Shown piece after piece: positions 14,533-44,700 of a stretch of 64,000 nt of DNA. The stretch lies in assembly GCA_016861045.1 (NCBI GenBank), contig BOKP01000002.1, positions 1-64,000 of the forward strand. Reading direction: 5' to 3'. The position numbers and the translations under genes were made by a program. This DNA comes from Actinomycetes bacterium (GTDB taxonomy: Bacteria > Actinomycetota > Thermoleophilia > Solirubrobacterales > 70-9). Each line of letters opens with the position of its first letter. Position 1 is the first letter of the stretch. The notes under the pieces are model-generated. The model searched no databases. It had not been told where the DNA came from and was given only the letters and a program-made list of their open reading frames with translations.

Positions 14533-16491
14533 TCAGGCGGCCGATCCGGCGCCCGCGCCCACCACGCAACCCGACGCCGACGGAGCAGACGGGTCGCCGC
14601 CGTCGGGGAACGCCTCGCGCAGCGCCCCGGCGATGAGGCGCGCGCGAGCGGCGTTGCCCGCGGCGGTGAAGTGGACGCCGTCCTCGCCGAACCACTCGTC
14701 CCTCGCGTCGGCCGCCCAGTCGTAGATCCGCATCGCGGGGTGCTTCGCGCAGGCGTCCTCGAGGGCATCGTTCCACGCCTGCATGCCCGACTCGGCCGCG
14801 ACCCCGCTCGGGTTGAGCGTCTTGAGGTTGATCCAGAGAACCGGGTCGTCTCCGGCCACCGACATCATCGTCTCGACCCGCTCGTCGATTCCCACCGCCG
14901 ATCCCGCCGCCACGTTCGCGGCGTCGTTCGTGCCGAGGGCGAACACCCAGCACCCGTCGAACCCCTGCTCCGCCCAGGAGGCCGCGACGTCCTCGGCGTT
15001 GGGCAGGCCGTCGCCGGACTCGAAGACGGAGCGGGAGAGCGCGACCTCGAAATGGGCCGTCTCGACTCCGACGCGCGAGTACCGGGCGGAGATCAGCTGC
15101 CCCGGACGGGCCACGTACTGCTCCGAGACGAGTCCCTCCGACGTCGAGTCGCCGACGTGGACGAGCTCCCGGCAGGAGGTCCGGTCCGCCGCCGCGGGCT
15201 CCGCGCCGGTCACCGTGGTGGCGACGCTCACGACGTGGGGCATGCCGGCCTGGGTCGGCCCCGCGCCGACCCCGGCGAGACCGAGGATCGCCGCGAACAC
15301 GGTCACGCCGGCCGCGCCGCCCATGGCCCAGCCCGTTCGCGTGATCACCAGCGGGCGCGGGCGGGCCTCCCACCAGCGGCCGAGAGCGCGCCGCAGCCCC
15401 CAGCGACGGATCGGATCCTCGACGTACTTCCACGAGAGCGCCGCGATCGCGATCGTCGCCGCGACCTGGAGCGCGCCCCGGACCAGCCCCGGCGCCTGAC
15501 CCGCCTCCGCGCTCGTCAGCGCGATTACCGGGAAGTGCCAGAGGTAGATCCCGTACGAGCGCTCGCCGATCCAGCGGAGCGGCCGGACGCCGAGCAGGGG
15601 CCCGAGCCGCGAGGCGGGATGGGCGAGCGCGGCGACGAGCAGCGCGGTCGCCAGCGACAGGATCAGGAACCCGCCCCTGTAGAGGAAGGGCGAGAGCTCG
15701 CTCGAGCGCCAGAACATCAGGGCGATGACGGCCAGGCCGAGCACCCCGCCGGCGTCGATCAGTCGCCGGGCCTCGAACGAGATCCCGCCTCGCAGGCGCC
15801 TGCTCGGCCAGACGGCCGCGAGGGCGGCGCCGACGAGAAGCTCGATCGCCCGGGTGTCGGTCCCGTAGTAGACGCGCGACGGGTCGGAGCCCGGCCGGTA
15901 CAGGACCGCCATCAGGACCCCCGATGCGATCGCGAGGCCGAGGATGATCGCGCCGAGCCTCGGCCGGGTGCCCGCCCTGGGCTCCATCCGCGGCAGGTAC
16001 CTGAGCGCGAGCAGCAGAGCGAACGGCCAGACGATGTAGAACTGCTCCTCCACCGAGAGCGACCAGAGGTGGTTAAGGGGGGCCGGCGCCTCGAACTGCG
16101 CGAAGTATGAGACGTCGTGGAAGACCTGCCACCAGTTGTTGACGTAGAGGGCGGCGCTCAGGACCGCCTGCCGGAAGTCGGCCGGCTGATGCGGGCCCAC
16201 CACCGTGACCCAGGCCATCACCACGACCAGCATCACGACCAGCGCCGGCAGCAGCCGGCGCGCCCGGGCCAGCCAGAAGGACCCGAGCCTGATCCCTCCC
16301 GCGTCGACCTGCGCGAGCAGCAGGTCCGTGATCAGGTAGCCGCTGAGGGTGAAGAAGACGCCGACGCCGAGCAGGCCCCCGGGCATCCACCCGATCCCGA
16401 GGTGGTAGGCGATCACCGCGAGCACGGCGATCGCCCGCAGCCCGTCCAGCCCCGGCATGTAGCGCCGCCCGCGCTTTACCGGCTCGGGCAC
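14533..16491 (-). CDS. Acyltransferase-3 (OafA-type) with C-terminal SGNH domain, copy 2
   Basis: 652 residues with the same plan as copy 1: YMPGLDGLRAIAV, VIAYHLG, FFTLSGYLITD in the membrane domain (1-400), then an SGNH domain with GDSTSEG near 447, GTNDAAN, and EDGVHF near 605. The SGNH serine, glycine, asparagine and D-x-x-H residues are all present. Probably O-acylates an envelope glycan; donor and acceptor are unknown. GTG at 16491 is preceded by GAGGGGGG. The two copies differ most in the stretch linking the membrane and SGNH parts, so acceptor specificity may differ. First gene of a minus-strand run of three. Confidence 0.92.
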   Translation of the reverse strand: MPEPVKRGRRYMPGLDGLRAIAVLAVIAYHLGIGWMPGGLLGVGVFFTLSGYLITDLLLAQVDAGGIRLGSFWLARARRLLPALVVMLVVVMAWVTVVGPHQPADFRQAVLSAALYVNNWWQVFHDVSYFAQFEAPAPLNHLWSLSVEEQFYIVWPFALLLALRYLPRMEPRAGTRPRLGAIILGLAIASGVLMAVLYRPGSDPSRVYYGTDTRAIELLVGAALAAVWPSRRLRGGISFEARRLIDAGGVLGLAVIALMFWRSSELSPFLYRGGFLILSLATALLVAALAHPASRLGPLLGVRPLRWIGERSYGIYLWHFPVIALTSAEAGQAPGLVRGALQVAATIAIAALSWKYVEDPIRRWGLRRALGRWWEARPRPLVITRTGWAMGGAAGVTVFAAILGLAGVGAGPTQAGMPHVVSVATTVTGAEPAAADRTSCRELVHVGDSTSEGLVSEQYVARPGQLISARYSRVGVETAHFEVALSRSVFESGDGLPNAEDVAASWAEQGFDGCWVFALGTNDAANVAAGSAVGIDERVETMMSVAGDDPVLWINLKTLNPSGVAAESGMQAWNDALEDACAKHPAMRIYDWAADARDEWFGEDGVHFTAAGNAARARLIAGALREAFPDGGDPSAPSASGCVVGAGAGSAA

Positions 16492-25638: not shown

Positions 25639-27018
25639 ATGGGACCGCGAACGCGAAGCTGGGCCCGGCGCGCGCCGGCGCTGCTGGCGCTCGTCGCGAC
25701 GGGCTTCGCGCTCTCCGGTTGCGCGTTCCAGCGCCCCGAGGATCCCGTCGTCCTCACCGGCTCGGAGCTTCCGCGCCTGATCGGGGCGCCGCCGGGGAAG
25801 ATCCTCGCCTACCGATACATCCAGGACCAGTGGCAGCAGGTCCCCGTCCAGGTGGACGAGCGCGCGGTGATCGACTTCGGGACCGTCTACGACGACGATC
25901 CCTACGGCGTCCAGGTCCTGACCTACACCGATCCCGGAACGTTCGTCGGCCCCGACCCCGATCCGACCCTGGACGGGAACGACGAGGTCGCCCTGATGGG
26001 CATCGACTCCTGGAGCCGGGCGCCCGCCGGCGCCCACCCCCCGAACGTCGTAGCGGGCTCGGGCGAGGAGCTGCGGATCCATGACGCCACCGGCGACCCG
26101 ATCGACACCTACGTCTATCTCTACAGGCAGACCGGCAACCTCGATCCCGGCGCCGGCCGGAGCTACGTCGACTACGACTTCGGCCTCCTCTCCGGCGACT
26201 ACAAGGGCACCTACCGCCTCAACGACGGCCCCAACCCCGAGGACTCGACGGTGACGACGAGCTTCTACTCGCGGCATTTCTCCGACCGCTGGACCGGCGA
26301 CGGGCTGCGGATCACGGCCCCGGGGGCGAGCGGCGTCGACATCCTCGATCGGCACAAGAACCTGTTCGCCCCGGGCTTCTGCGACCGCAGCGAGGACACC
26401 TTCAACGACGCCGAGGGCGCGTTCATCGTCAACAAGAGCGGCCCGGTCCGCGCGATCCGCTCCTACATCGGCGCGAACAGCGGGCCGCTGACCGGCCGCC
26501 AGCACGTCTTCTACGAGCGCCGCGAGGAGATCACCACGTTCCTCCGCGTCCACGCGATCCCCGCGGTCATGGACTTCTTCGACTACAGCCCCGCCGCGTC
26601 CGGGATGACCTACCGCAGTGACGCCGACGGGGACGGGGCCACGATCGACGGCATCCCCGATCAGGTCGACGCCGGCGAGATCGGCTGGGAGACGGTCGAC
26701 GGCGCCCAGGGCGGGCTCTCGATCGTGCACCGGATCAGCACCGACGTCCCCGGCCTCGACTGGACCTCCTACCATCTCGACGACAGCACGCCGTCGGGCC
26801 CGTCGCAGACGCAGTGCACCGGGGACGCCTTCGCCTACGGCTCGAGCGGACCCTGGATCAACGAGGGGATCCCGAACACCGATCCCCGCTCGACCCCCTT
26901 CTACTCGCTCACCGACCGCCGAACCCTCTTCTACGAGCTGCCGGGCAAGCCCGACGGGCCGCGGCGCTCGGCCCAGGTCGACAGCCCGCTTCAGGTCTCG
27001 GTCGCGCCGCACGACTGA
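25639..27018 (+). CDS. Predicted lipoprotein of unknown function
   Basis: 459 residues. An N-terminal Arg-rich and hydrophobic signal ends in the lipobox LSGC near residue 29. The mature protein is acidic, rich in Asp, Gly and aromatic residues, and probably beta-rich; it contains DADGDGATIDGIPDQVD, which resembles a calcium-binding DxDxDG loop. No family recognised. TAGTCT at 25621-25626 lies 12 nt before the ATG and no Shine-Dalgarno sequence is visible. Gene ends 132 nt before the oxidase operon, separated by a hairpin, so it is probably a separate unit. Confidence 0.8.
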   Translation: MGPRTRSWARRAPALLALVATGFALSGCAFQRPEDPVVLTGSELPRLIGAPPGKILAYRYIQDQWQQVPVQVDERAVIDFGTVYDDDPYGVQVLTYTDPGTFVGPDPDPTLDGNDEVALMGIDSWSRAPAGAHPPNVVAGSGEELRIHDATGDPIDTYVYLYRQTGNLDPGAGRSYVDYDFGLLSGDYKGTYRLNDGPNPEDSTVTTSFYSRHFSDRWTGDGLRITAPGASGVDILDRHKNLFAPGFCDRSEDTFNDAEGAFIVNKSGPVRAIRSYIGANSGPLTGRQHVFYERREEITTFLRVHAIPAVMDFFDYSPAASGMTYRSDADGDGATIDGIPDQVDAGEIGWETVDGAQGGLSIVHRISTDVPGLDWTSYHLDDSTPSGPSQTQCTGDAFAYGSSGPWINEGIPNTDPRSTPFYSLTDRRTLFYELPGKPDGPRRSAQVDSPLQVSVAPHD

Positions 27019-27150: not shown

Positions 27151-27702
27151 GTGGGAGACGCATTGCTTGATCCGAGCTACGATGGCTTTCAGATCGCGGT
27201 CGCGGTCGTCTTCGCGCTGATCGCGGTCTCGCTGGCGCTGTTCTTCGCCTTCGCGGCCCGCCAGGCCGGGCGCGAGATGTCCCTCGAGGCCGTGACCGAG
27301 GCCGCCTACCGGGCGCGGCCGCTGTGGCTGGCGTTCCTCGCGATCGTGCTCGGCACGATCGTCTGCGTGACCCTGTTCTTCACGCCCTACCGCCCCGACA
27401 CCGCCGCCGCCAGCGCGACCGTGAAGGTGGTCGGCGGGCAGTTCTACTGGACCATGGACCCGAAGAGCGTGCCCGCCGGCAGCGACGTCATCTTCGAGGT
27501 CACCGCGGCCGACGTCAACCACGGCTTCGGCGTCTACAACCCGACGGGACAGCTGATCGGGAACGTCCAGGCGATGCCCGGCTACACGAACGACCTCGAG
27601 CTGAGCCTCGACGAGCCCGGGACCTACCTCGTCTCGTGCCTCGAGTTCTGCGGCCTCAAGCATCACGACATGGCGGCCGAGTTCGAGGTGACGGAGGAGT
27701 AG
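27151..27702 (+). CDS. Heme-copper oxidase subunit II with CuA site
   Basis: 183 residues. Two membrane helices (about 12-35 and 55-77) precede a cupredoxin domain. CuA ligands are H124 (DVNHGFGV), C163 and C167 (CLEFC), H171 and M174, the same spacing as in Thermus ba3 oxidase. It accepts electrons from a c-type cytochrome and passes them to subunit I. The short length and two-helix anchor are near the B-family type. GTG start at 27151. The stop codon abuts the ATG of subunit I with no gap, so the two are translated together; the cytochrome c gene follows subunit I after 3 nt. Confidence 0.93.
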   Translation: MGDALLDPSYDGFQIAVAVVFALIAVSLALFFAFAARQAGREMSLEAVTEAAYRARPLWLAFLAIVLGTIVCVTLFFTPYRPDTAAASATVKVVGGQFYWTMDPKSVPAGSDVIFEVTAADVNHGFGVYNPTGQLIGNVQAMPGYTNDLELSLDEPGTYLVSCLEFCGLKHHDMAAEFEVTEE

Positions 27703-29733
27703 ATGGAGAGCGCCACGGCCACCGCCCCCGCCACCGGCAGCATCGCCCATCCCGACGGCGAGCGACTGATGGCGCCGCCGGACCGCGAGGCGCGGCTGGT
27801 CGGCTGGCTCTGCGCCGGCACCGGGCTGGCGCTGTTCGCGGTGATGGGCCTGCTCGGGCTGACGATGCGGCTCACCCAGGCCGAGGTGCTCGGCGTCTCC
27901 GACGAGTGGTTCTACCGGATCATGACCCTGCACGGATCGGGGATGCTCGCCGGAATCCTGCTGGCGTTGATGGGCGGGATCTGGTACGTGCTGAAGTCCG
28001 TCGCGGAGCTGAGCTTCACGCGGATGCTGGTCAGCTACGCGGCGATGGTCCTCGGCGCGGTCGTCGTCCTCGTCTCGGTCGTCTTCGGCGGGTTCGGGGC
28101 CGGCTGGACGTTCCTCTCGCCGCTGCCGTTCCTCCCGGCCGAGGCCTGGGACACCTGGGCCGCCGCGGCGTACTTCATCGGACTGATGCTGGTCGGCGTC
28201 AGCTTCCTCGTCTTCTGCATCGACGTGCTCACGACCCTGACCCGCACCTACGGCGGGCTCTCCGGCGCCCTCGGCGTTCGCTTCCTGCGCGACCGCGACG
28301 ACAACCCGCCGCCGCCGCAGGTGATCGCCGCCACCGCGGTCACCGCCCAGGGCACGCTGGCGAGCGCGGTCGGGTCGACGATCCTGATCGCGCTGCTCGG
28401 CAAGTCGATCGACTCCGGGGTCGAGCTCGACGCGCTCTGGGCGAAGAACCTGACCTACTTCTTCGGCCACTCCTACGCGAACCTGATCATCTACCTCGGA
28501 GCGGGGATGATCTACGTGCTGCTGCCGCGCTATGCGGGCCGCCAGTGGAAGACGACGAAGCCGCTCGCCTACGGCTGGCTGGCGACGCTGCTGCTGGTCA
28601 CGACCGCCTACGGCCATCACCTCTACATGGACTTCGTCCAGCCCGGGGCGGCGTCGGTGATCGCGACCGTCTCCTCATCGGCTGCGGCGCTGCCGGTCGC
28701 GGTCGTGACCGTCTACACCGGGGTCATGCTCGTCTGGGGCTCGCGATACCGCTGGACGCTCGCGAGCGTGCTGATCTACCTCGGCTTCGCGGGCTGGACG
28801 ATCGGCGGCGTCGGGGCCGTGATCGACTCCCTGATCCCGATCAACTTCCGGTTCCACAACACGCTCTGGGTGCCGGCCCACTTCCACACCTACCTGATGC
28901 TCGGCGCGGTCTTCTGGGTGATGGCCTTCCTCGTCCACATGCTCGAGCGGGCGGCGGGACGACCGGCCTCGGAGCGGGTCGCGAAGGCCTCGGTCGGCGC
29001 GATGGTGCTCGGCGGCTACGGCCTCGTCGGCGCTTGGTACGCGTCCGGGGCGCTCGGCGTGCCGCGCCGCTACTCGGTCCAGCCCGTCGACACCGAGGTC
29101 TACAGCGCGGTCGCGAGCGCGTGCGTGGCGCTGTTCGCGGTCGGCTTCCTGCTGGTCCTGTTCGAGGTCGGGCGGCTCGCGCTCGCCGCCCGCGGCGGCG
29201 CCGGCCGCGGCTCCGGCGCCGCCGCGCCGCCGCCGATCGCCGGGGCCGCGGCCGCGGCCGGGCCGGCGCCGGCCCGGCCCGCCCTGACCTCGCCCTTGCA
29301 GATCGGGACGGTGGTGGCGATCGCGGTCGCGGCCAGCTTCGCCCTGCTCCCGGGGATCTCGGCGGCGACCGAGGGCAACGTGCAGATGCACCACCTCGCC
29401 CATGCCGTGCAGTACCTCTACGGGATCGCGCTCGGGATCGCGTTCGGCTCGACGCCGTCGATCTTCCGGCGCCTCGCCCCGCGCTGGACCGGCGCTGCGA
29501 TCGCGGCCGGGATCATCGGCTCCACGGCGATGCTGCTGGCGATGGTCCCGGCCATCTACGAGCCGCTCCAGGACGACGACGTCCTCCACAGCTTGTACCA
29601 CGTCGGAGTCGTCGCGCTCGGCGTGATCACCGGATTCGGAGCGGCGTTGCTGGGACCGACCACCGGCAAGCTGCTCGCCGTGCTCTCGGTCGGAATGGGG
29701 CTGATGTACGCAGCCGGCGTGACAGGAGGCTAG
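27703..29733 (+). CDS. B-family heme-copper oxidase subunit I lacking the crosslinking Tyr (possible NO reductase), with extra C-terminal helices
   Basis: 676 residues. Ligands are all visible: H77 (LHGSG) and H395 for the low-spin heme, H393 (AHFH) for the high-spin heme, H256 (GHSYAN), H305 and H306 (GHHLYMD) for CuB. In oxygen reductases the helix carrying the first CuB histidine reads H-x3-Y; here the residue at that position is N260. Loss of this Tyr is a known mark of NO reductases that arose inside the oxidase superfamily, so NO reduction is a serious alternative to O2 reduction. After an Ala/Pro/Gly linker (about 485-525) come five more predicted helices with paired histidines (H563, H564, H567 and H629, H633), not part of the usual fold. 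Confidence 0.92.
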   Translation: MESATATAPATGSIAHPDGERLMAPPDREARLVGWLCAGTGLALFAVMGLLGLTMRLTQAEVLGVSDEWFYRIMTLHGSGMLAGILLALMGGIWYVLKSVAELSFTRMLVSYAAMVLGAVVVLVSVVFGGFGAGWTFLSPLPFLPAEAWDTWAAAAYFIGLMLVGVSFLVFCIDVLTTLTRTYGGLSGALGVRFLRDRDDNPPPPQVIAATAVTAQGTLASAVGSTILIALLGKSIDSGVELDALWAKNLTYFFGHSYANLIIYLGAGMIYVLLPRYAGRQWKTTKPLAYGWLATLLLVTTAYGHHLYMDFVQPGAASVIATVSSSAAALPVAVVTVYTGVMLVWGSRYRWTLASVLIYLGFAGWTIGGVGAVIDSLIPINFRFHNTLWVPAHFHTYLMLGAVFWVMAFLVHMLERAAGRPASERVAKASVGAMVLGGYGLVGAWYASGALGVPRRYSVQPVDTEVYSAVASACVALFAVGFLLVLFEVGRLALAARGGAGRGSGAAAPPPIAGAAAAAGPAPARPALTSPLQIGTVVAIAVAASFALLPGISAATEGNVQMHHLAHAVQYLYGIALGIAFGSTPSIFRRLAPRWTGAAIAAGIIGSTAMLLAMVPAIYEPLQDDDVLHSLYHVGVVALGVITGFGAALLGPTTGKLLAVLSVGMGLMYAAGVTGG

Positions 29734-29736
29734 GAA

Positions 29737-30171
29737 GTGGACGGGAGACGGTCGGACGAGGGAAGCCGGACGGTGCAGGCGTGGATCTACGGGATCCTCG
29801 CCGGGGTCGTGGTGCTGGCCCTGATGGGCATCGCCTACACGGTCGGCTCCAACAGCGGCGGCGACGAGCCCGCCACGACGCAGGCCGAGGCGACGACGAC
29901 CGACAAGGCGGACGAGACGACTGGCGGGGCGGGAGGCGGTCCCGAGGCGGAGCTCTTCGCCACGAACTGCGGGAGCTGCCACACGCTCGCGGCCGCCGGC
30001 ACCAGCGGCACCACCGGGCCCGACCTCGACGCCCTGGCCCCGGACGAGGCGCAGGTTCAGGCGGCGATCGAGAACGGCGGCGCCGGCTCCGGCGCGATGC
30101 CGGCGAACATCGTCACCGGCACCGACGCGAAGGACATCGCCGCCTACGTGTCCTCGTCGGCCGGGAACTGA
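29737..30171 (+). CDS. Membrane-anchored monoheme cytochrome c
   Basis: 144 residues. One N-terminal helix (about 15-36), a Thr/Ala/Glu-rich linker (40-65), then a class I cytochrome c domain with CGSCH (C78, C81, H82) and the sixth ligand M121 in GAMPANI. The likely electron donor to the CuA subunit two genes upstream. GTG start, preceded by AGGAGG 9 nt upstream and only 3 nt after the oxidase stop, so the three genes form one operon. Confidence 0.92.
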   Translation: MDGRRSDEGSRTVQAWIYGILAGVVVLALMGIAYTVGSNSGGDEPATTQAEATTTDKADETTGGAGGGPEAELFATNCGSCHTLAAAGTSGTTGPDLDALAPDEAQVQAAIENGGAGSGAMPANIVTGTDAKDIAAYVSSSAGN

Positions 30172-30226: not shown

Positions 30227-32323
30227 TCAGGCGACCGCCTCGGAGCCCGCGGAGCGGGCCGCGGCGATCACCTTCTCGGCGAGGTGGGCCGGGACCTCGG
30301 CGTGGCGGTCGAACTCGAGCGCGTAGTCGCCGCGGCCGCCCGTGATCGCGCGCAGCGCCGGGGCGTAGTCGAGGACCTCGGCCATCGGCACCTCGGCGAC
30401 GATCTCGGTCGTCCCGGCGCCGCCCTTGGGCTCCATACCGAGCGGATGGCCACGGCGCGAGTTGAGGTCTCCGATCACGTCGCCGACGCAGTCGTCGGGG
30501 CAGGCGATCGTCAGCTTCGCGATCGGCTCCAGCAGCGCCGGCGATGCGTCCGCCATCGCCTCCTTGAAGCCCATCGAGGCGCAGATCTTGAACGCCATCT
30601 CGGAGGAGTCGACCGTGTGGTGCTGGCCGTCCACGAGCCGCACGCGGACGTCCTTGATCGGGTAGCCGGCGAGCGTGCCGTGCTGCATCGCCTCCTTCAC
30701 GCCGGCCTCGACCGCGGGGATGAAGCCGCCCGGGATCACCCCGCCCTTGATCTCGTTGACGAACTCGAGGCCGGTCCCGGGGTCGGCCGGCTCGATCTCG
30801 ATGTGGCAGTCGGCGAACTGGCCGCGGCCGCCTGACTGCTTCTTGTAGCGGGAGTGGGCCTTGGCCGGCTTGCGGATCGCCTCGACGTAGGGGACGCGCG
30901 GCGGGTGCAGCTCGATCTCGGCCCCGTAACGGCTCTTCATCCGCGCGACCACGACCTCGACGTGGATCTGGGTCAGCCCGGCGATGATCTGCTCGCCGGT
31001 CTGCGGATCGCGGTGGACGTCGAGCGTCGGATCCTCCTCGCGCAGGCGCCGGATCGCCGTCGCCGCCTTCTCCTCGTCGCCGCGGCTCTTCGGCTCGAAC
31101 GCGAACGCCATCACCGGGCTCGGCAGCTCGAGCCGCGCAAGCGCCAGGTCGCGCCTGCGATCGCAGAGCAGCTCGCCGGCCCGGGTCTCCTTGAGCTTCG
31201 GCACGATCCCGATGTCGCCGGCGCCGAGGTCGTCGACCGCGGTCATCTTCGCCCCCTGTGCCTCCAGGAGCTGGCCGACCCGCTCCTGGGTGTCGCGGGT
31301 TACGTTCACGACCTGGGCGTCGGCGGTGAGCGTCCCCGAGAGGACGCGAACCACGTTGAGGCGTCCGGCGAAGGGATCGGCGGTCGTCTTGAAGACATGG
31401 ACGACGAGATCGTCGCCCTCGTCGGGCTCGATCCCGACCTCGGCGCCGTCGCCGTCGAGCAGGGTCCGGGCGCCGCGCATCGCCGGCGAGGGCAGGTCCT
31501 CGACGAGCGCCTCGAGCAGCCGGCCGGTGCCGAGGTTGCGGGTGGCGATCCCGCAGGTGACCGGGAACAGGTGGCCCTCGGTGACGCCGCGCTTGAGCGC
31601 CGTGACGATCTCCGAGTGGGAGATCTCCGCGCCCTCGAGGTAGTGCTCCATCAGCTCGTCGGAGTTCTCGGCCACCTCGTCCATGAGCTTGTCGCGGTAC
31701 TGCTCGGCGAGCTCGACCATCTCCTCGGGGATCTCCGCCTCGACCGTGCCGCCGCGCTCGGCGCTCTCGTGCAGGAAGGCCTTCATGTCGATCAGGTCGA
31801 CGATCCCCCGCACCTCGTGCTCGGTGCCGATCGGGATCTCGGTCGCGACGACGTGGGGACCGAACGCCGCCTTCAGCGAATCGAGGGCCGCGAAGAAGTC
31901 GGCCCGCTCGCGATCGAGCATGTTGACGAAGACGAGGCGCGGCAGCTCCGCTTCGGCCGCCCGCTGCCAGAGCCGGTCGGTTCCGACCTCGACCCCGGCC
32001 ACGGCGTTGACGACGACCACCGCCGCGTCGGCCACCGACAGCGCCGCGGCCGCCTCGGCGACGAAGCTCGGCTCCCCGGGAGCGTCGATCACGTTCAGCT
32101 TGCGGTCGTCGTGCTCGAAGGTCACGACGGCGGCATCGATCGACATCCCCCGCGCCTTCTCGTCCTCGGCGGAGTCGGTGACGGTGCTGCCGTCGTCGGC
32201 CCGCCCGAGCCGGTTGGTGACCCCCGCCTCGAACAGCATCGCCTCGCAGACCGAGGTCTTGCCACAGCCGCGATGTCCGACCAGAGCTACGTTCCGAATC
32301 CGGTCAGCCGACTTGTGCGACAT
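30227..32323 (-). CDS. Elongation factor G-like GTPase (EF-G2 type)
   Basis: 698 residues, the full EF-G domain order: GTPase domain (1-270), beta barrel (about 290-370), then domains III-V with the domain IV region around GGRGQFADCHIEIEP. G1 is GHRGCGKTS. G3 reads DAPGEPSF instead of DTPGH. G4 reads NMLD (134-137) instead of NKxD. These shifts resemble the non-canonical EF-G2/FusA2 group of actinobacteria, whose role is unclear; canonical fusA normally lies with the ribosomal str operon genes and none are here. ATG 32323 is 7 nt after TAGGCT on the coding strand, suggesting a leaderless message. Divergent from the enoyl-CoA hydratase. Confidence 0.92.
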   Translation of the reverse strand: MSHKSADRIRNVALVGHRGCGKTSVCEAMLFEAGVTNRLGRADDGSTVTDSAEDEKARGMSIDAAVVTFEHDDRKLNVIDAPGEPSFVAEAAAALSVADAAVVVVNAVAGVEVGTDRLWQRAAEAELPRLVFVNMLDRERADFFAALDSLKAAFGPHVVATEIPIGTEHEVRGIVDLIDMKAFLHESAERGGTVEAEIPEEMVELAEQYRDKLMDEVAENSDELMEHYLEGAEISHSEIVTALKRGVTEGHLFPVTCGIATRNLGTGRLLEALVEDLPSPAMRGARTLLDGDGAEVGIEPDEGDDLVVHVFKTTADPFAGRLNVVRVLSGTLTADAQVVNVTRDTQERVGQLLEAQGAKMTAVDDLGAGDIGIVPKLKETRAGELLCDRRRDLALARLELPSPVMAFAFEPKSRGDEEKAATAIRRLREEDPTLDVHRDPQTGEQIIAGLTQIHVEVVVARMKSRYGAEIELHPPRVPYVEAIRKPAKAHSRYKKQSGGRGQFADCHIEIEPADPGTGLEFVNEIKGGVIPGGFIPAVEAGVKEAMQHGTLAGYPIKDVRVRLVDGQHHTVDSSEMAFKICASMGFKEAMADASPALLEPIAKLTIACPDDCVGDVIGDLNSRRGHPLGMEPKGGAGTTEIVAEVPMAEVLDYAPALRAITGGRGDYALEFDRHAEVPAHLAEKVIAAARSAGSEAVA

Positions 32324-32330
32324 GGCCGCG

Positions 32331-32403
32331 AGCCTATAGCAGCCGCAACCTCCGGGCGCGCCCTCCCGCCGGCGGCACGGGCGCCGCAGGGCGGCTGTAC
32401 CTT
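32331..32403. promoter_or_regulatory. Divergent promoter pair, both leaderless-like
   Basis: TAGGCT on the minus strand (32336-32331) ends 7 nt before the EF-G-like ATG, and TACCTT on the plus strand (32398-32403) ends 6 nt before the enoyl-CoA hydratase ATG at 32410. The 86-nt gap shows no Shine-Dalgarno sequence for either gene. No convincing -35 elements are seen. Confidence 0.45.
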
Positions 32404-32409
32404 CCACGC

Positions 32410-35738: not shown

Positions 35739-38700
35739 CTACGGGGGCGCGTCGATCTCGACCCGCAGCGGGGCGAACTCGCTCAGGTTGAGGGCGCGGT
35801 CGACGACGATCGCCTGAACGTCCCAGACGCCCTCGCCGGAGATGTCGAACGGGCCGGTGTAGAAGTGGCCGTTGTAGCTGGTCCCGGGGCCGGGGTCGGT
35901 GTCGCGGATGTAGGCCATCCAGCCGGGGGTCTCGGGCACGCCGGAGGCGTCGGGGCCGCCGGGGTCGTTGCCGGAGATCGTGCAGCTGACCGGCGAGGTC
36001 GGCGACGGCGCCGGCGCCGGCGGGCAGGAGATCGAGGCGACCGGCGCGACCGTGTCGACCTTGAAGCTGCGGCTGGCCGGGGTCGGGTCCGCGTTGCCGG
36101 CGCCGTCCCTTGCGCGGACGGCGAAGGTGTGATCGCCGTCGGCCAGCGGGTCGAGGGTCTCGGGCGAGCCGCAGGGCTCGAAGCCGCCGTTGTCGATCTC
36201 GCACTCGAAGCTCGCGCCGGGGTCGTCGGAGGAGAAGGCGAAGGTCGGGGTCGGATCGTTGGTCGGACCGGTCGGTCCCGCGTCGATCGCGGTGTCGGGC
36301 GGGGTGGCGGCGCACTCGACCGTGACCGAGACGGCCGCCGTCGAGCCGCCGTTGAGCGTGTAGCCGAAGCTCGCGGGCGGATCGCCGGGGGAGCTGTTGC
36401 AGTAGCCGGGGTCGGGCTCGTAGGTGAGGCCCTTGCCGTCGGGGTCTACCAGGATGGTGCCGTGGGCGCTGCCCGGGACGGACGCCACGATGAAGATCTC
36501 GAACGGGCCGCCGTCGGGATCGGTGTCGTTGGCGAGGACGTCGATCGGGGTCGGGCCGGCGTCCTGGGCGACCGTCACCTCGTCGTCGACCGCGGTCGGG
36601 GCGATGTCCTCCGACCCGCTGATCGCGACCTCCTCGAGCACGGGACTGCGAGCCGGATCGCCGCTGGTCAGGGTCGCCCGGTACTGCACGTAGCGGCTGT
36701 TGCCGGGGATCTCGCCGCCGCTCGCGACCGGGGTGAACCCGCTCCAGCTCCCGTCCGGCGTCGCGGTGTCCCCGGTGCGGACGCTGAGCTCGACGCCGGT
36801 GCCGGCGGGAGCGTCGGCGACCCAGCTCAGGGCACCCCAGTCGGTGGCCTGTCCGGCGTCGAGGATCCGCGAGTCGAAGCTGCCGGACCCCGGATAGGGG
36901 CCCATCCGCAGCCAGCCGAGCGCGAGCTCGGGACCGCCCGAGCCGAGGTCGCTCAACGTCGGCCGCAGATCGACGCCGAAGCTGCCGGAGTGCGTCGCGA
37001 CCAGGCCGCCGTCGACGTAGTAGCGGACCTCGCCGGCGTCCCACTCGATCCGGTAGCGGTGCGAGACGTCCGGGGTGACCCCCGGAACCGTGAGGCTGCT
37101 CTCCCCGGCGCCGAAGTTCGTTCGTGCCCGCACCTCGTTGCTCGTGCTCCCGGTGCTGAACATCGCGTAGAGGTCGCTCTGGAAGCTGTCGGCGGTCAGG
37201 CCGGCGTGCTGGAAGGGGGCCGCGCCGAGCGCCCCCTCGAACTCGAGGACGCGGCCGGGGCCGAACGTCGCGTCGGTGCTCGCGAAGGCGCCGTCGACGT
37301 GGATGCTGCCGCCGGCGAGCGTGGCGGACCCGCCGGTCCACGGCGCGCCGTTCCCGCTCGACCAGCCGGCCGGCAGCCCGGGGCCGCCCCGGAACTCCTC
37401 GCCGACCGCGGGTCTGAGCGTGACCTCGCCGCCCGCCTCATCCGCGACGTAGGCTCCGGAGCCGGGATCGCCGGCGGAGAAGTCCGCCGCCGTCGTGTCG
37501 ACCAGCCCGACCGGCGGGCCGCCGACCGTGAACTTCCAGCCGTCGTCGGCCCCGAGCGGGTTGCCGGCAGCGTCCTCGATCGAGCCGGCCACCGTGACGT
37601 CGTAGGTGGCCTCGGCGTCGAGGTCCGCATCCGGGTCGAGGGTCACCGTGCTGCCCTCCGCATCGACGGCCGCGGGGACGTCGGCGCCGCTGCCCCGCCT
37701 GCGCAGGCGCACGCTCGAGCCGTCGACCGTCGCCGGGTCGATCACCTCGCTGAAGCCGACGACGACGTCGGAGCCGGCCGCGACCCCGGTGGCGTCGGGC
37801 GCCGGGCTGCGCTCGGTGACGCTCGGCGGCGTCGCGTCGGGAGCGTGGACGTATCCGATCGAGACCCGGGCGAGCGCCGCGGTCACGCCGGGATCGCTGC
37901 TGGTCAGCCGCGCCCGGTACTGCAGGTAGCGAGACTCGCCGGGGACGTCGTCGCCGCTCGACGCGATCGGGTCGAACCCGCTCCAGGTCCCGTCCGGGGT
38001 CGGGGTGTCGCCGGTGCGGACGCTGATCTCGATCCCGGTGCCGGCGGGCGTGACGGCGTCCCAGGCGAGCGCGCCCCAACCGGCGTTCCCACCGGCGTCG
38101 AGGACCCGCGAGTCGAAGCTGCCCTCCGCCGGATAGGGACCGACCCGCAACCAATCGAGCCCGAGCTCGGGACCGCCCGGGTCGAGGTCGCTCGTCAGCG
38201 CCCGCATCGCCTGGACGAAGCCGACCGAGTGGGTGGCGACGAGGGCGTCGTCGACGAAGAACCGGACCTCGCCCGGGTCCCACTCGATCCGGTACCGATG
38301 CCGGGAGCCGAGCAGGTCCGCGGGCAGCGGCGTGTCGGTCGCGGTCGTCCCGTTGTGGGTGCGGGCGTAGAGCTGCCCGTCGGCCTTCGTGCCGAACGCC
38401 GCCCAGGGCGGCGCGTTCAGGTCGACGGCGAACCCGGCGGTCTGGAACGGGGTCGCGGCGAACGTCGCGGCGAGCTCCAGCGAGCGAGCCGACCCGTAGG
38501 TGGAATCCGTGCCGGCGCTGGCACCGTCGACGTGGAGCCCGCCGCCGGAGACGGCGGCGCCGCCGCCGGGCGACCACGGGGCGCTCGACCAGCCCGCCGG
38601 CAGCGAGGCGCCCTCGAACTCCGCTCCCTCCGCCGGCCTCAGCGTGACCTCGCCGTCGTCGCTCCGCGCCACGTACGCATCGGCCCCGACCGTGCCGGCG

Positions 38701-41700
38701 CCGAAGTCCGAGCCGGTCGTGTCGATCAGCGAGAGCCCGGCGGTGGTGAACGTCCAGGAGTCGTCGGCGCCGAGCGGATTGCCGCTCTGGTCCTCGACCG
38801 AGCCGGCGACCGTGACCTCGTAGGTGGCGCCCGGCTCGAGGTCGGCATCCGGGTCCAGCGTCGTCGTCGCGCCCGCGTAGGCGACCGTCGCCGCGACGTC
38901 GGCGCCGCCGCCCTGCTCGCGCAGGCGGACGGTGCTCCCGTCGAACGTCGCCGGGTTCATCGGCTCGCTGAAGCCGACCTCGACGGTGGCGGCGCGGTCG
39001 ACCCCGGCCGCGCCCGGCGCCGGCGTCCGCGTCGTGATCGTCGGGGCCGTCGTATCGCCGCTTGGGGCGTACGTGGCGCTGACCTCGCTCAGGCTCGGCG
39101 AGCGCATCCCGTCGCCGGCCTCGAGGACCGCCCGGTACTGCAGATAGCGCGAGTGGCCGCCGATCGCCCCGCCCGGGGCCGCGACCGGGGCGAACGCGCT
39201 CCAGCCGGCATCGGGCGTCGGCGTGCTCCCGGTGCGGACCTGAAGCGCGACGCTGGTCCCGGCCGGGGTGTCGGCCGTCCAGTTGAGCGCCTGCCAGTTG
39301 ACCGCCTCACCGGCGTCGAGGATGCGCGAGTCGAAGCTCGACGACGGCGGGAACGGGCTCATCCGGATCCAGTCGACCGACAGGGCCGGGCCGCCGGCGT
39401 TGAAGTCGCTCGCGGCCGGGCTCAGATCCGGGCCGAAGGCCGCCGTGTGGGTCGCGACGAGGCCTCCGTCGACGTAGTAGCGGACCTCGCCGGGCCCCCA
39501 CTCGATCCGGTAGCGGTGCTCGGAGCCGACGAGCGCGCCGGGGATCGGCGTATCGACGCTGCCCGATCCCGTGTTGGTGCGGGCGTAGAGCTGATCGCTC
39601 GCGTTGTTGGTGCTGAACAGCGCCCAGGCGCTGGTGAAGCCGTCGGTCAGCCCGACGTGCTCGAAGGGCGCCGCGCCGAAGCTGGCGCTGAACTCGAGCG
39701 AGCGGCCGGGGCCGAAGCTCGCGCCGGTCGCGGCGTAGGCCCCATCGACGGCGAGCCTGCCGCCCGCGACGATCGCGCTGCCGCCCGCGCCGCCGCCCTG
39801 GGACTCCCACGTCGTCCCCGACCAGCCGCCCGGCAGCGCCGGGCCGCCCGCGAACTCGGCGCCGACGGCGGGCTCGAGCATCACCTCGCCGTCCCCGGAC
39901 GCGGCGACGTAGCCGTCCGCGTCGGTCGTCCCGGCGGAGAAGTCGGCCACGGTCGTGTCGGTGAGCGTCGCCGCCGGGGTCGTGAAGCTCCGCGGCGGCT
40001 GGGCCCCGCCGGGCTCGGTCGTCGCGTTCGCGGAAGCGTCCGCCGAGGTCACGCGGTAGTAGTAGGTGGTGCTCGGATCGAGCCCGCTGAGCCCGACGCT
40101 GTGGGAGGTGCCCATCCCCGGATCGCTCGCGGTCGAGCCCAGCGACCCGGGACTGGTCCCGTAGTCGACCCGTGAGTCCGACGGCTCGTCGGTGTCCCAG
40201 CTGATCGTCGCCGTCTCGGGACCGAGGTCCTCGGCGACGTTGGAGATCGCCGGGCCCGCCTGATCGGGCTCGTAGGTCGCCGCGTAATCGCCGGGCGCGG
40301 CGTCGATGAACGCGTACCGCTCCCCCTTTACCGTCCGCACCGTCGTCGCGACCGACTCCTCGTTCCGCGTCACGCCGGTCAGCGTGCCCGCCGCCGATTC
40401 GGCGGGCACCATCGCCCGCAGCCCGTTCGCACCCGAGCCGACCTCGATCGTGAACCGGAGCCGGCTTCCGTTCCAGCCGATCCCGTTGAAGGCGGAGCCG
40501 TTGCGCCCGTCGAGCCAGCGCAGCATCTGCGCGCTCGAGACGACCGGGACGTCGCGCGCCTGCGCCGAGGCGACGATCGCGTCGGAGCCGGCGGAGGAGG
40601 CGGAGTCGGTGTGCATGTTGGCGACGAAGGCGCCGTAGTAGCCCTCGGTCCCGAGCGCGCGGTCGAGCAGCGCGTCGGCGGTGAACGGGTAGGACTGGCC
40701 CGACTCGTCGGTCATCTGCGTCGGCGCCTGGTAGACGTCGATCATCGAGCCGTCCGTGTCGGCGAACCTCATCGGCATCCCCGATCCCGTGAACAGACCC
40801 GGCGTGTCGTCGACCCAGCTCGGCGGCCAGAAGTAGTAGTTGGTGTCGAGGCGGATGCCGTGGTCGAGCTCGGCCTTCGGCACCGAGGCCCAGTCGCTCC
40901 AGGCGATGCAGTGGGTGCGGCTCGTCGCGGGAGCGCCGACGTCCGGATACCGGGCCGCGAACTGGCCGAGCTGGTCGGTCAGGTCCTGCTCGAGCGAGAG
41001 CGGCGTGAAGTCCGCGCAGCCCGTGCTCAGGTGCATCGCCACCTCGAAGCCATCGGCCTCGTATCCCGCCGCCTGGGCGTTCGTCAGCGGCGAGCCCGGG
41101 AAGACGTAGGAGGTCGAGCGGATGCACTCCCAGTCGGCGACCGCGCAGCCGGCCGGGCTCAGCTCCCCGTACTGGTCGAAGCGGCCCGCGGTGCCGCCGC
41201 CGGCGTGGTCGTCGCCGGTCATCACGACGACCGCCTTCTCGCCTCGCGGGAAGTACCAGAAGCGCGGCAGCGGCATCCGGTCGGCGTTCATCTCGCCGAT
41301 CAGGTTGGCCAGCAGCCGCTGCTGCTCGTCGGCCTGCGGGATCGCGATCCTGTCGCGGTCGACCCAGTCCGGCTGGGGATCGCCGGCCGCGTCGCCGAAG
41401 AACAGGTTGTCGGCGCGGATCGGGCCGGCCTGGCCGTCCCGCGACTGCCCGGCCCAGACCGGGTTGCCCTGGCGCGTGTAGACGACCGAGCGCGCCAGGT
41501 CGTAGGTGAAGGCCGCGGCCTGGCCGCCGTTCGGGCCGACGCTCCGCAACGTCACCGCCGGGCTCGAGGTCGGGGTCGTCGCGTCCGAGTAGAGGGTGGC
41601 GATCGTGGCCGTGTCGCTCGCCGTGTAGAGATCGGCGGCCCCGTGGTACTGGATCGTCCCGTCGACGATCCCGGCTCCCGGTCCCGAGCCCGTGTTGACG

Positions 41701-44700
41701 TCGAGGTAGCCCTCCGCCAGGGGCGCGCCCGCGGGGGTGACCCCGAGCAGGCCCGCGAGCTCGGCGTCGGGACGCATCGCGACCAGGTTGCCGCCGCCCG
41801 TCACCCAGTCGCTCAGCGTCTGTGCCTGCACCGCGGTCAGGTCGGCCTCGCCGAGGACGACGACGTCGTAGCCGTCGAGCGTCGAGGCGTCGATCGCGCC
41901 GAGGTCGGCGACCGCGAACTCGTTCAGCCCCTCCGCCCGCAGGATCTCGGCGTAATAGCGGCCGAACGGGTTCGAGCCGTCGGCGACGACGAGGATCGGC
42001 CCGCCCGGCCCCTCGTCGGGCGGAGGTGGCGGCGGCGCGGCCGTCGTGAACGTCCAGGAGTGGTCGCCGCCGCGCGGGTTGCCGGCGGCATCGGTGACGC
42101 CCCCGGGGCCGCCCTTGACGGTGGCCGTGTAGGCCGTCGAGTGGGCGAGCTCGGCGCCGGGGTCGAGGGTCGCCGTCCTCGTCGCCGGCGAGTAGCTGAC
42201 CGCGGCGGGGACGACGGCGTTGGCAGCGTCGCGCAGCTCGAAGCTGGCCTCGTCGATCGTCCCCGCGTCCATCGCCTCGTTGAACGTCGCGGTGACGTCG
42301 GTGGAGGTGCCGACGCCCGAAGCGCCCGGCGCCGGCGTGACCAGGCTGATCTCGGGCGGCGTCGTGTCGGGGCCGGTGTCGTCGTCGAAGACGACGTCGA
42401 CCCAGTAGTTGGTCGCGTTGAAGGTGCTCGTCGGGAAGACCCCGGCCGGGCCGTACGCGTAGACGCCGTTGGCGCCGTCGACGCCGTCGGCGAGCGCGTG
42501 CAGCGGCGGGGCGTCGACTCCCTGGCCGGCGAAGGCACCGCCGGTGGCCGCGTAGTTGCCGCTGGGGGCGTGGTAGGAGGCGACGTAGGTGGTGTCGGCC
42601 TCGATCGCGACGGGGACGTCGAGCTCGGCCTCCTGCCAGCCGGTCGCGCTCTCGCCGGTGAACGTCGCCTGGGCCAGCAGGGCGCCCGACGCCGACCAGA
42701 GGTGTCCGACGTGGGTGCCGGTGTTGGCTGCGCCCTTGTAGAAGCGGATGCCGGTGATCTCGCCGGCGATGTCGGAGCGGAACTTGACGCCGAGCTCGAC
42801 CGCGTTGGCGTCGCTGGCGACGGGCGGCGTCGCCGAGTCGCTCCAGATCGAGCAGGGGCAGCTCGCCGGCACCACGTCGACCGTCGTCCCGGGTCCGGGC
42901 GCCTCGATGTTGCCGCTGTCGTCGACTGCGCGGGTCCGGATCGTCGCCGGGCCCGTCGCCTGCGGAGTCCACGAGTAGCTCCAGCTCCCGCGCCCGTCGG
43001 CCGGTCGCCAGGTCGAGCCGCCGTCGACCGAGACCTCGACGCCGCCGACCTCTCCCCCGCCCGCGTCCGATGCCGTGCCGCTGATCGTCGTCTGCCGGCC
43101 GGCCGGGAGATCGGCGCCGGCGCTCGGGCTCGTGAGCTGCGAGCCCGGGGCGGTCGCATCGGTCGAGGCGCTCGCCACGGCGAGGCCCGGCTGCAGGGTG
43201 TCGGGCTGGGCGCCCATGTCGGCGAGCAGGTTCACGGTCGCCTGCTGCATCCGCGGGTCCGGCGACGTGGCGCCGCGGTCGTGGTTGCCGTCGAGCCCCC
43301 ACGACCACTGGATCGTGCCGGCGCCGAAGACGAGCGCGCCGCTTTCGGCGCGGTAGAGCGTCAGGTGGTGGGTAGCGGTTCCGGGCGCGTAGGTCGAGCC
43401 GTTGTCCTGCAGCACCTCGACCCCGGGGCGGACCGCCGTCGAGAGCCGGATCAGGCCGGGCGGGCGCGAGCCGTTGTCGAGGTCCTCGTCCCACTCGTAG
43501 CCGAGCGTGCTCTCGCCGAGGGTCGCGCTCTGCCCCGGAGCGAGCGAGCCGAGGCTCGTGTCACGCCAGAGCCGCAGCTTGCCCTCGGCCGCCTGCACCT
43601 CGATCTCCGAGGTGCCGGAGTTGACCATGAAGATCGTGCCGGTCAGGGCGTTCTCCGGCTGCGGGCCCTCGGGGTTGAACGGGCGCCCGTCACGCCAGGT
43701 GCCGGTCCAGGTCGGGGTCGGGTCGATCTTCGCGCCGGCGTGGGTCTCCTTGTAGGAGACGAGGGTGCGGTGCGGGGTGCCGGTGCCGTCGATGCTCTGC
43801 TCCCACCGGGTCTTCCAGAACGACTCGTTGCCGCTGAAGAAGGCGAGGTCGACGCCGGCGTCGCGTGCCGCGGTCACGTTCGCGCGCTGCCCCGCCGACC
43901 AGTACTCGTCGTGGCCGACGGACAGATACGCCTCGTGCTCGAGGATCTCGCCGCCGTAGCGGTCGGCGTCGACGCCGGTGAAGTAGCTGACGTCGTAGCC
44001 GTTGCGCTCGAGCCAGCGCACCATCGGGTACTCGGCGTTGAACGGGGAGTCCTCCGGGGTCGGGCCCCGCGTCGTGAACGGGCGGTTGTAGCTGACCTTG
44101 TAGGCGCGGCCGGCGGGCGAGCCGGTGTAGAGGCTGTTCCCGCCGTAGCTGTTGTAGGCCTGCCAGGTCGTGTCGGCGGTCTGGAACAGCAGGTCGGAGC
44201 CGCCGGCGTCGTCACGGACGACGAAGTAGACGTGGCTCGAGCCGGCGGTCGCGTCCTCGCGGACGAGCTTGGCGAAGTAGACCCCCGAGACGGCGTCGAC
44301 GGGCACGTCCCAGGAGGCGGAGACGGCCCAGTTGCCGCAGTCGACGAGGCCGGTCCCGGGGTCGCTCAGGCAGGCGGGCTGGCCCTGCGGCAGCGTCGCG
44401 GACGGCTCGACGGAGGCGACCTGCCGCGCTCCGTCGCCCCCGTAGTACCCCATCCTGTAGATGTCGAGCCGGTAGTCGTCGGCGTCGGTGTCGACCTTGA
44501 AGTCGACCGTCTCGCCGATGTCGACGCTGATGTCGGTCGCGAAGCCCTGGATGCTCGCCGAGCCGGCGCCGCTGACGTCCCACTCGCTCGGCGGGCTGCC
44601 GGGCTTGGAGTTCTCGCAGACGATCTCGTTCGCGACCGGCTCGTCGCAGGGCGCGGCCTCGGCGGTTGCCGCGATCGCGCCGAAGGCGGCGAGGAGCGTG

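Follow-up and report, generated by a model that had tools for sequence, protein, structure and literature searches.

The window, by which we mean the whole stretch of 64,000 nucleotides that was analysed (contig BOKP01000002.1, positions 1 to 64,000), carries a three-gene operon that encodes a CuA subunit II, a subunit I fused to a CtaG-like membrane module, and an anchored cytochrome c. The features to which we refer are the following:

27151..27702, forward strand: subunit II, with two N-terminal TM helices followed by a periplasmic CuA cupredoxin domain (PF00116, 35.9 bits; TIGR02866, 75.6 bits)
27703..29202, forward strand: subunit I catalytic domain (residues 1-500), with a 12-helix heme-copper oxidase fold, six His ligands and N260
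28468..28482, forward strand: H256-S-Y-A-N260 of helix VI, holding a CuB ligand and the diagnostic Asn
29203..29283, forward strand: Ala/Pro/Gly-rich linker (residues about 501-527; pLDDT about 60)
29284..29730, forward strand: C-terminal five-helix module (residues 528-676), distantly CtaG-like, with invariant HHxxH and HxxxH
29737..30171, forward strand: cytochrome c of 144 aa, with one N-terminal TM anchor and a CGSCH heme motif (PF13442, 34.1 bits; PF00034, 30.8 bits)

The subunit I ORF (27703-29733, forward strand) is intact, encodes 676 aa and has the third-position G+C typical of a real gene. The stop codon of subunit II abuts its ATG, the cytochrome c ORF starts three bases past its stop, and the next gene downstream of the operon encodes elongation factor G on the other strand (30227-32407). 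An upstream ORF of 459 aa (25639-27018) was left out of the operon because it had no Pfam or NCBIfam match and no match at the loci of relatives. Scans for promoters and terminators found nothing. The subunit I ORF matched PF00115 (COX1) with 195 bits, and its NCBIfam matches bore cytochrome oxidase names only, all of them far below the cut-off (CtaD_CoxA was the best match; CtaD, 114 versus 671 bits). The AlphaFold2 model of the protein reached a pLDDT of 89.6 and a pTM of 0.92. By VIA-align, residues 28-502 of this model were superposed on an A-family subunit I with a Z of 40 and an rmsd of 2.8 A over 455 residues, and the structure alignment to chain 7deg gave a Z of 34.6.

The first-pass annotation had held that a CuA subunit and a membrane-anchored cytochrome c are retained at this locus. 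Indeed, both flank subunit I, the heme motif is present, and the CuA ligands of subunit II are complete (H124/C163/E165/C167/H171/M174). An alignment of four subunit II sequences demonstrated that these ligands are conserved in the Ruegeria and Thermomicrobium homologues. In the cytochrome c, Met121 is the candidate for the sixth ligand as judged from its sequence, and this protein is probably the electron donor to CuA. Elsewhere in the window, a 3011-aa, probably secreted protein with repeated domains covers 9 kb (35739-44774, reverse strand). In addition, two neighbouring paralogues (11720-13723 and 14533-16491, both on the reverse strand) start with RYMPGLDGLRAIAVLxVIxYHLG and look like membrane acyltransferases that probably arose by tandem duplication.

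The active site of subunit I had been described as having six metal and heme histidines and an Asn in place of the cross-linked Tyr of oxidases, and both observations were confirmed. The histidines are H77, H256, H305, H306, H393 and H395. In a family profile search, in which the Thermus ba3 oxidase was the first PDB match, GHPIVYFWLLP of ba3 was aligned with GH-x-x-x-N260, and Tyr237 of ba3 stood in the N260 column. Relatives were drawn from a one-genome-per-species scan and from the class of the window genome, and they represent about ten phyla (Actinomycetota, Eremiobacterota (Vulcanimicrobiota), Planctomycetota, Verrucomicrobiota, Acidobacteriota, Pseudomonadota, Myxococcota, Bacillota, Chloroflexota, Gemmatimonadota, Dormibacterota and Kryptonia). 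N260 was invariant in 82/82 distinct relatives, as were all six histidines, Y264, Y271, D310, D375 and Y397, and all 23 aligned Tyr-type paralogues carried Tyr at the N260 site. Because of this constancy in both groups, we do not take Asn260 for a sequencing error.

The same residue bears on the assignment to a family. Membership in the A- or B-family of O2 reductases was rejected since N260 occupies the place of the Tyr four residues past the helix VI CuB His, and membership in the C family (cbb3) was rejected since V299 occupies the place of its helix VII Tyr. The published residues at the Tyr site are Gln in eNOR, Asp in gNOR and Glu in cNOR and qNOR (PMC8756737 Table A4). With Asn at this site, gNOR was likewise rejected, as were cNOR and qNOR, from which the window enzyme also differs by having CuA instead of a NorC or quinol arrangement. 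Asn at the Tyr site has been described as the signature of sNOR and of the Bacillus CuANOR/bNOR (PMC8756737 Table A4; PMC3475470).

In a maximum-likelihood tree from which the N260 column was left out, all Asn-type rows formed one clade with a support of 100/100. This clade includes Ruegeria pomeroyi (formerly Silicibacter) and Thermomicrobium roseum, and its sister group consists of Tyr-type oxidases from the same bacterial class (support 100/97). The eNOR-like Gln sequences (L157, L158 and L161) grouped with ba3 outside the Asn clade, also in a quick tree with more rows; this position and the Gln of eNOR at the site led us to reject eNOR. A placement among proven O2 reductases, which the first-pass annotation had named as an outcome contrary to its reading, was not observed, as the protein lies within a pure Asn clade.

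Silicibacter is among the listed sNOR carriers (PMC8756737 Table A4), and it is by this genus listing that Ruegeria serves as the named sNOR reference of the tree, which is without Nitrosomonas and Geobacillus sequences. The 'type II' cluster of Bacillus and Geobacillus was reported to consist of a two-TM subunit II, a 12-helix subunit I and a third component with 4-5 TM helices (PMC3475470). In the window, the model places 12 helices before the fused module, and subunit II has two hydrophobic segments. We filed the window enzyme under sNOR because of its Asn residue, the presence of Ruegeria in the same clade and the type II plan, next to the six histidines and the CuA subunit II, this being an assignment from sequence by the criteria of secondary papers. 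The CuA-type NO reductase that had been suggested at first is the best-supported reading of the locus, but the type is not new, since the Asn has already been published for sNOR and CuANOR/bNOR. To this known class we add a CtaG-like module fused to subunit I, the logic of a complex with four modules, and the pathway at the genome level.

The survey also brought up other heme-copper proteins. A Burkholderiales-labelled MAG carries a Thermoleophilia-type fused enzyme (L045, JAICUZ010000003.1; 50% identical) that is nested in the Thermoleophilia clade, which reflects either horizontal transfer or misbinning. In Thermoleophilia Tyr-type B-like oxidases (L014, L016, L021-L032), subunit I often extends at its C-terminus into a fused cytochrome c domain, which in L014 and L016 shares 59-64% identity with the cytochrome c that the window operon encodes as a gene of its own. 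In two genomes of the same genus, such a Tyr-type enzyme with fused cytochrome c is present instead of the Asn type. A 35-kb Sulfuritalea contig (G252:C136) encodes three heme-copper proteins, namely an Asn-type sNOR, a Gln-type eNOR-like protein and a third, divergent protein with GGGHALQFIWT (L168, L158 and L173). Another protein of this Sulfuritalea MAG (L170, G252:C26:6922-8226) has Glu four residues past the helix VI His (FAHNLMEAMALMV), and its last helix X His is replaced by Met; it sits on a very long branch and fits no named NOR type in the alignment.

In 18/20 sampled genomes of the bacterial family to which the window genome belongs, we detected a conserved subunit I paralogue of A-family fold with replaced ligands (L185-L202), which is absent from the window genome itself. 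Examples are G238:C194:6886-8400 (reverse strand), 2.6 kb from an Asn-type gene, G053:C3:142842-144356 (reverse strand) and G180:C141:20-1513 (forward strand). The ORFs are intact and 43-76% identical to the G238 copy. The helix II His is replaced by Y/M/F/G/A, the CuB His by T/S/A, the Tyr by M/L/V/A/T/I, and the helix VII His-His pair by an invariant Gln-Asn; the heme a3 His is lost, and one helix X His is left in half of the sequences. The paralogue looks like a cofactor-free pseudo-oxidase kept by selection.

The last ~150 residues of the subunit I protein lie outside the oxidase fold, a point that the first-pass annotation had overlooked. In the model, residues 528-676 form five helices. 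A profile of this module detected it as a separate gene directly after subunit I in 41/82 loci examined, and in 18 of these 41 the module ORF runs on into a CxxCH cytochrome c domain. Each of the 11 complete Thermoleophilia-type loci, on the other hand, has the module fused to subunit I, with a cytochrome c gene behind it. As the module has been joined to subunit I in some lineages and to cytochrome c in others, we consider all four modules (the CuA subunit, the Asn-type catalytic subunit, the CtaG-like membrane module and cytochrome c) to be parts of one complex.

Across 21 sequences, ten positions of the module did not vary, including those of HHxxH and HxxxH. Profile-profile comparison matched the module to Caa3_CtaG with an E of 2.5e-6 and a probability of 89, while other membrane profiles and reversed CtaG, used as controls, gave a probability of 1.1 or less. 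Direct matches to Pfam PF09678 stayed below threshold, the best being 11.3 bits for one member. When the module alone was compared with PDB folds, Foldseek gave no match below an E of 0.001, and the best Z of 6.1 was at the level of common helical arrangements, so that we assign no fold to it. The profile-profile match suggests a distant relationship between the module and the copper-assembly factor Caa3_CtaG. A full CtaG (PF09678, 174 bits) is encoded in T. roseum, and full CtaG is found downstream of subunit I in the clusters of T. roseum, L105 and L101. In one further locus (L084:2501-4508), an Asn-type subunit I is fused in frame to a full-type CtaG (a PF09678 relative) within which the contig ends, and this fusion is a version independent of that in the window. 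In Bacillus subtilis, Caa3_CtaG is needed for active cytochrome caa3, and it is tentatively regarded as a CuB assembly factor (PMC9145763, PMC13344008). As its invariant histidines suit copper handling, the fused module probably helps to load or stabilise CuB. A CtaG-like module fused to the catalytic subunit would also offer a handle on the function of Caa3_CtaG, which is itself unsettled.

The genome that contains the window measures 2.70 Mb and is 97% complete. It encodes two heme-copper proteins only, the window enzyme and an aa3 oxidase with the normal Tyr, as well as a cytochrome bd. A narGHJI cluster was identified in which all four products scored over the curated cut-off (NarG 1762 bits, NarH 787, NarJ 110 and NarI 216). 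Furthermore, a NirK-like protein is encoded on another contig; in the PDB it matched a copper nitrite reductase best (217 bits), and the copper ligands of the two were aligned, but it fell below the curated NCBIfam cut-off (193 versus 296 bits). Neither cNOR nor qNOR was found in the genome, and searches with two NosZ families retrieved no NosZ, the only matches being to CuA or cupredoxin segments. The view that the enzyme is encoded next to no other denitrification gene therefore holds within the window, but not genome-wide, where narGHJI and the nirK-like gene are present on other contigs. The window enzyme is the only heme-copper NOR candidate of this genome, whose gene set would take nitrate by way of nitrite and NO to N2O. 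Another genome of the same genus (G180:C160:4718-11074) has its NirK-like gene about 2 kb from narG, so that nitrate and nitrite reduction are encoded in one cluster there.

Across 249 genomes of the class, NarG was present in 8/9 Asn-type genomes versus 37/240 others (Fisher p=5e-6, phylogeny ignored), and full-length NirK in 6/9 versus 33/240 (p=6e-4, phylogeny again ignored). Within the genera g4, g14 and g56, NarG occurs in the Asn-type genomes but in none of the sampled others, and the reverse was seen in no genus. NarG is also often found together with the Tyr-type relatives of this class. In other phyla, a convincing full-length NirK was found in about 9/29 Asn-type genomes, and there was no NirK within 6 kb of the 82 Asn-type loci. 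Beside 13 of these loci (L059, L060, L062, L065, L080, L082, L083, L091, L094, L099, L102, L110 and L115) we observed members of a family that joins a DUF2249 domain to Crp-type cNMP-binding and HTH domains, as read on L091. Published work links DUF2249 proteins to denitrification in haloarchaea (PMC11218638) and to nitrate respiration in Thermus (PMC6282519), and the DUF2249-Crp protein is a candidate for an NO or nitrate responsive regulator.

From the sequence and the gene content we infer that the locus is an sNOR-type NO reductase operon which ends a Nar-NirK-NOR pathway at N2O, and we assign a probability of about 0.72 to this explanation as a whole. Electrons from the bc1 complex would be handed on by the anchored cytochrome c to the CuA site of subunit II, and would pass from there through the low-spin heme (H77/H395) to the binuclear centre formed by the high-spin heme (H393) and CuB (H256/H305/H306), where two NO would bind and be converted to N2O and water. 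A site that lacks the cross-linked Tyr should not easily provide the further electron and proton that O2 splitting requires, whereas the two-electron reduction of NO would have no need of this residue. The fused CtaG-like module would load or stabilise CuB. At the level of the cell, nitrate would be reduced to nitrite by NarGHJI, nitrite to NO by NirK, and NO to N2O by the window enzyme, with no NosZ beyond. It should be noted that sNOR is a proposed type that has not been biochemically characterised (PMC11388526), and that the literature searched offered no case of NO reduction by a purified enzyme of the Asn clade.

A different proposal is that the enzyme reduces O2 with high affinity and does so without the cross-linked Tyr, with another residue, such as Y252, Y264 or Y303, as the donor of electron and proton. 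In transcriptomics of Nitrosomonas europaea, the sNOR genes were induced under O2 limitation, and the authors suggested a high-affinity O2 oxidase (PMC6967387). Oxidases have the same kind of CuA and cytochrome c components, and Y264 would suit the role of a donor, as it is constant throughout the Asn clade, is replaced by Phe or Leu in Tyr-types, and shares a helix face with H256 and N260 (i, i+4, i+8). Y252 and Y303, however, vary within the clade, the former being Phe or Leu in 29/82 and the latter Trp or Phe in 9/82; oxidases have tryptophan at both positions. A Tyr from another helix near CuB, which the first-pass annotation had likewise named as contrary to its reading, was sought, and none was conserved. 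The cross-linked Tyr of cbb3 lies six residues before the His pair on helix VII, and a cbb3 sequence found in this survey does have Tyr there. The Asn clade has V/I/T/M at this position (H305 minus 6, which is V299 in the window protein) in 82/82. The only near-invariant tyrosines are Y71, Y264, Y271, Y308 and Y397, none of them at the cbb3 position, and a substitute Tyr elsewhere was rejected on these grounds; Y271 and Y308 are common to the Asn clade and the Tyr-type oxidases. Moreover, the aa3 and bd oxidases of the genome make the window enzyme dispensable for O2 reduction, and apart from this candidate the genome has no heme-copper NOR. Together with the strong association of the Asn type with NarG, this makes O2 reduction an unlikely function.

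Even less probable, in our view, is that the same chemistry serves NO detoxification, either aerobically or under nitrosative stress, rather than respiration. The frequent lack of NirK in Asn-type carriers of other phyla would fit such a physiology, as would the DUF2249-Crp regulators and the suggestion that bNOR acts in aerobic NO reduction (PMC11388526). Nonetheless, respiratory NarG is present in the window genome and in 7/8 other Asn-type genomes sampled in the class, and an electron supply through CuA and cytochrome c is a trait of a respiratory enzyme. Finally, although the ligand-less paralogues in the same bacterial family show that decay to a non-enzyme occurs in this lineage, a degenerate or regulatory heme-copper protein without turnover is scarcely credible here, as the six subunit I ligands are conserved in 82/82 and the CuA ligands in the four aligned subunit II sequences, unlike in those paralogues.

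Extending the reading as an NO reductase from the window to the whole Asn clade, we tentatively propose, at odds slightly short of even, that the clade with its about ten phyla represents a CuB-type NO reductase of four modules that loads its own CuB by means of a CtaG-derived, copper-loading membrane module, and that in soil Thermoleophilia it is the sole heme-copper NOR beside Nar and NirK without NosZ. If this were true, these bacteria would be overlooked emitters of N2O, a greenhouse gas. Standard annotation names such genes cytochrome c oxidase, so that organisms which make N2O from nitrate are missed or are scored as having no NO reductase. As it is debated whether sNOR reduces NO or O2, a genome in which an sNOR is the sole heme-copper NOR candidate, next to separate aa3 and bd oxidases, is a clean place for testing this.

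Among known systems, sNOR (Nitrosomonas, Silicibacter/Ruegeria, Deinococcus and Geobacillus) and the 'type II qCuANOR' of B. azotoformans share with the window enzyme the Asn, a two-TM subunit II, a 12-helix subunit I, a small multi-TM third component in the cluster and a B-family-like sequence, and the Ruegeria enzyme falls into the same clade. The window enzyme is set apart from them by the fusion of the CtaG-like module to subunit I and by the dedicated anchored cytochrome c encoded behind it. In addition, the window operon lacks the adjoining SCO/SenC and formate/nitrite transporter genes of Ruegeria, and its subunit I is only 35-38% identical to those of Ruegeria and Thermomicrobium. The bNOR or CuANOR type I of Bacillus azotoformans, for which NO reductase activity has been shown in the literature and which has so far been reported from Bacillota only, likewise has Asn at the site and a CuA subunit II. 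However, its subunit I is longer, with 13 helices, and its subunit II has one TM helix, whereas the window enzyme has 12 helices plus the fused module and a two-TM subunit II; because of this different helix plan, membership in bNOR was rejected. With eNOR, the window enzyme has in common that it is a CuA-type NOR from the B-family side of the superfamily.

The B-family ba3 oxidase of Thermus thermophilus, which is the best PDB profile match, resembles the window enzyme in fold and ligands, and its K-path Y248 matches the invariant Y271. It differs by its cross-linked Tyr237, its one-TM subunit II and the lack of a CtaG-like module. As for the module itself, it shares with Caa3_CtaG (PF09678) the HHxxH / HMxQH and PxxYDxx...HxxxH pattern, and in Thermomicrobium and two relatives a full CtaG gene is located at or near the position of the module in the operon. 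In contrast to the seven helices of Caa3_CtaG, the module comprises about 150 aa with five helices, and the link between the two is seen by profile comparison only.
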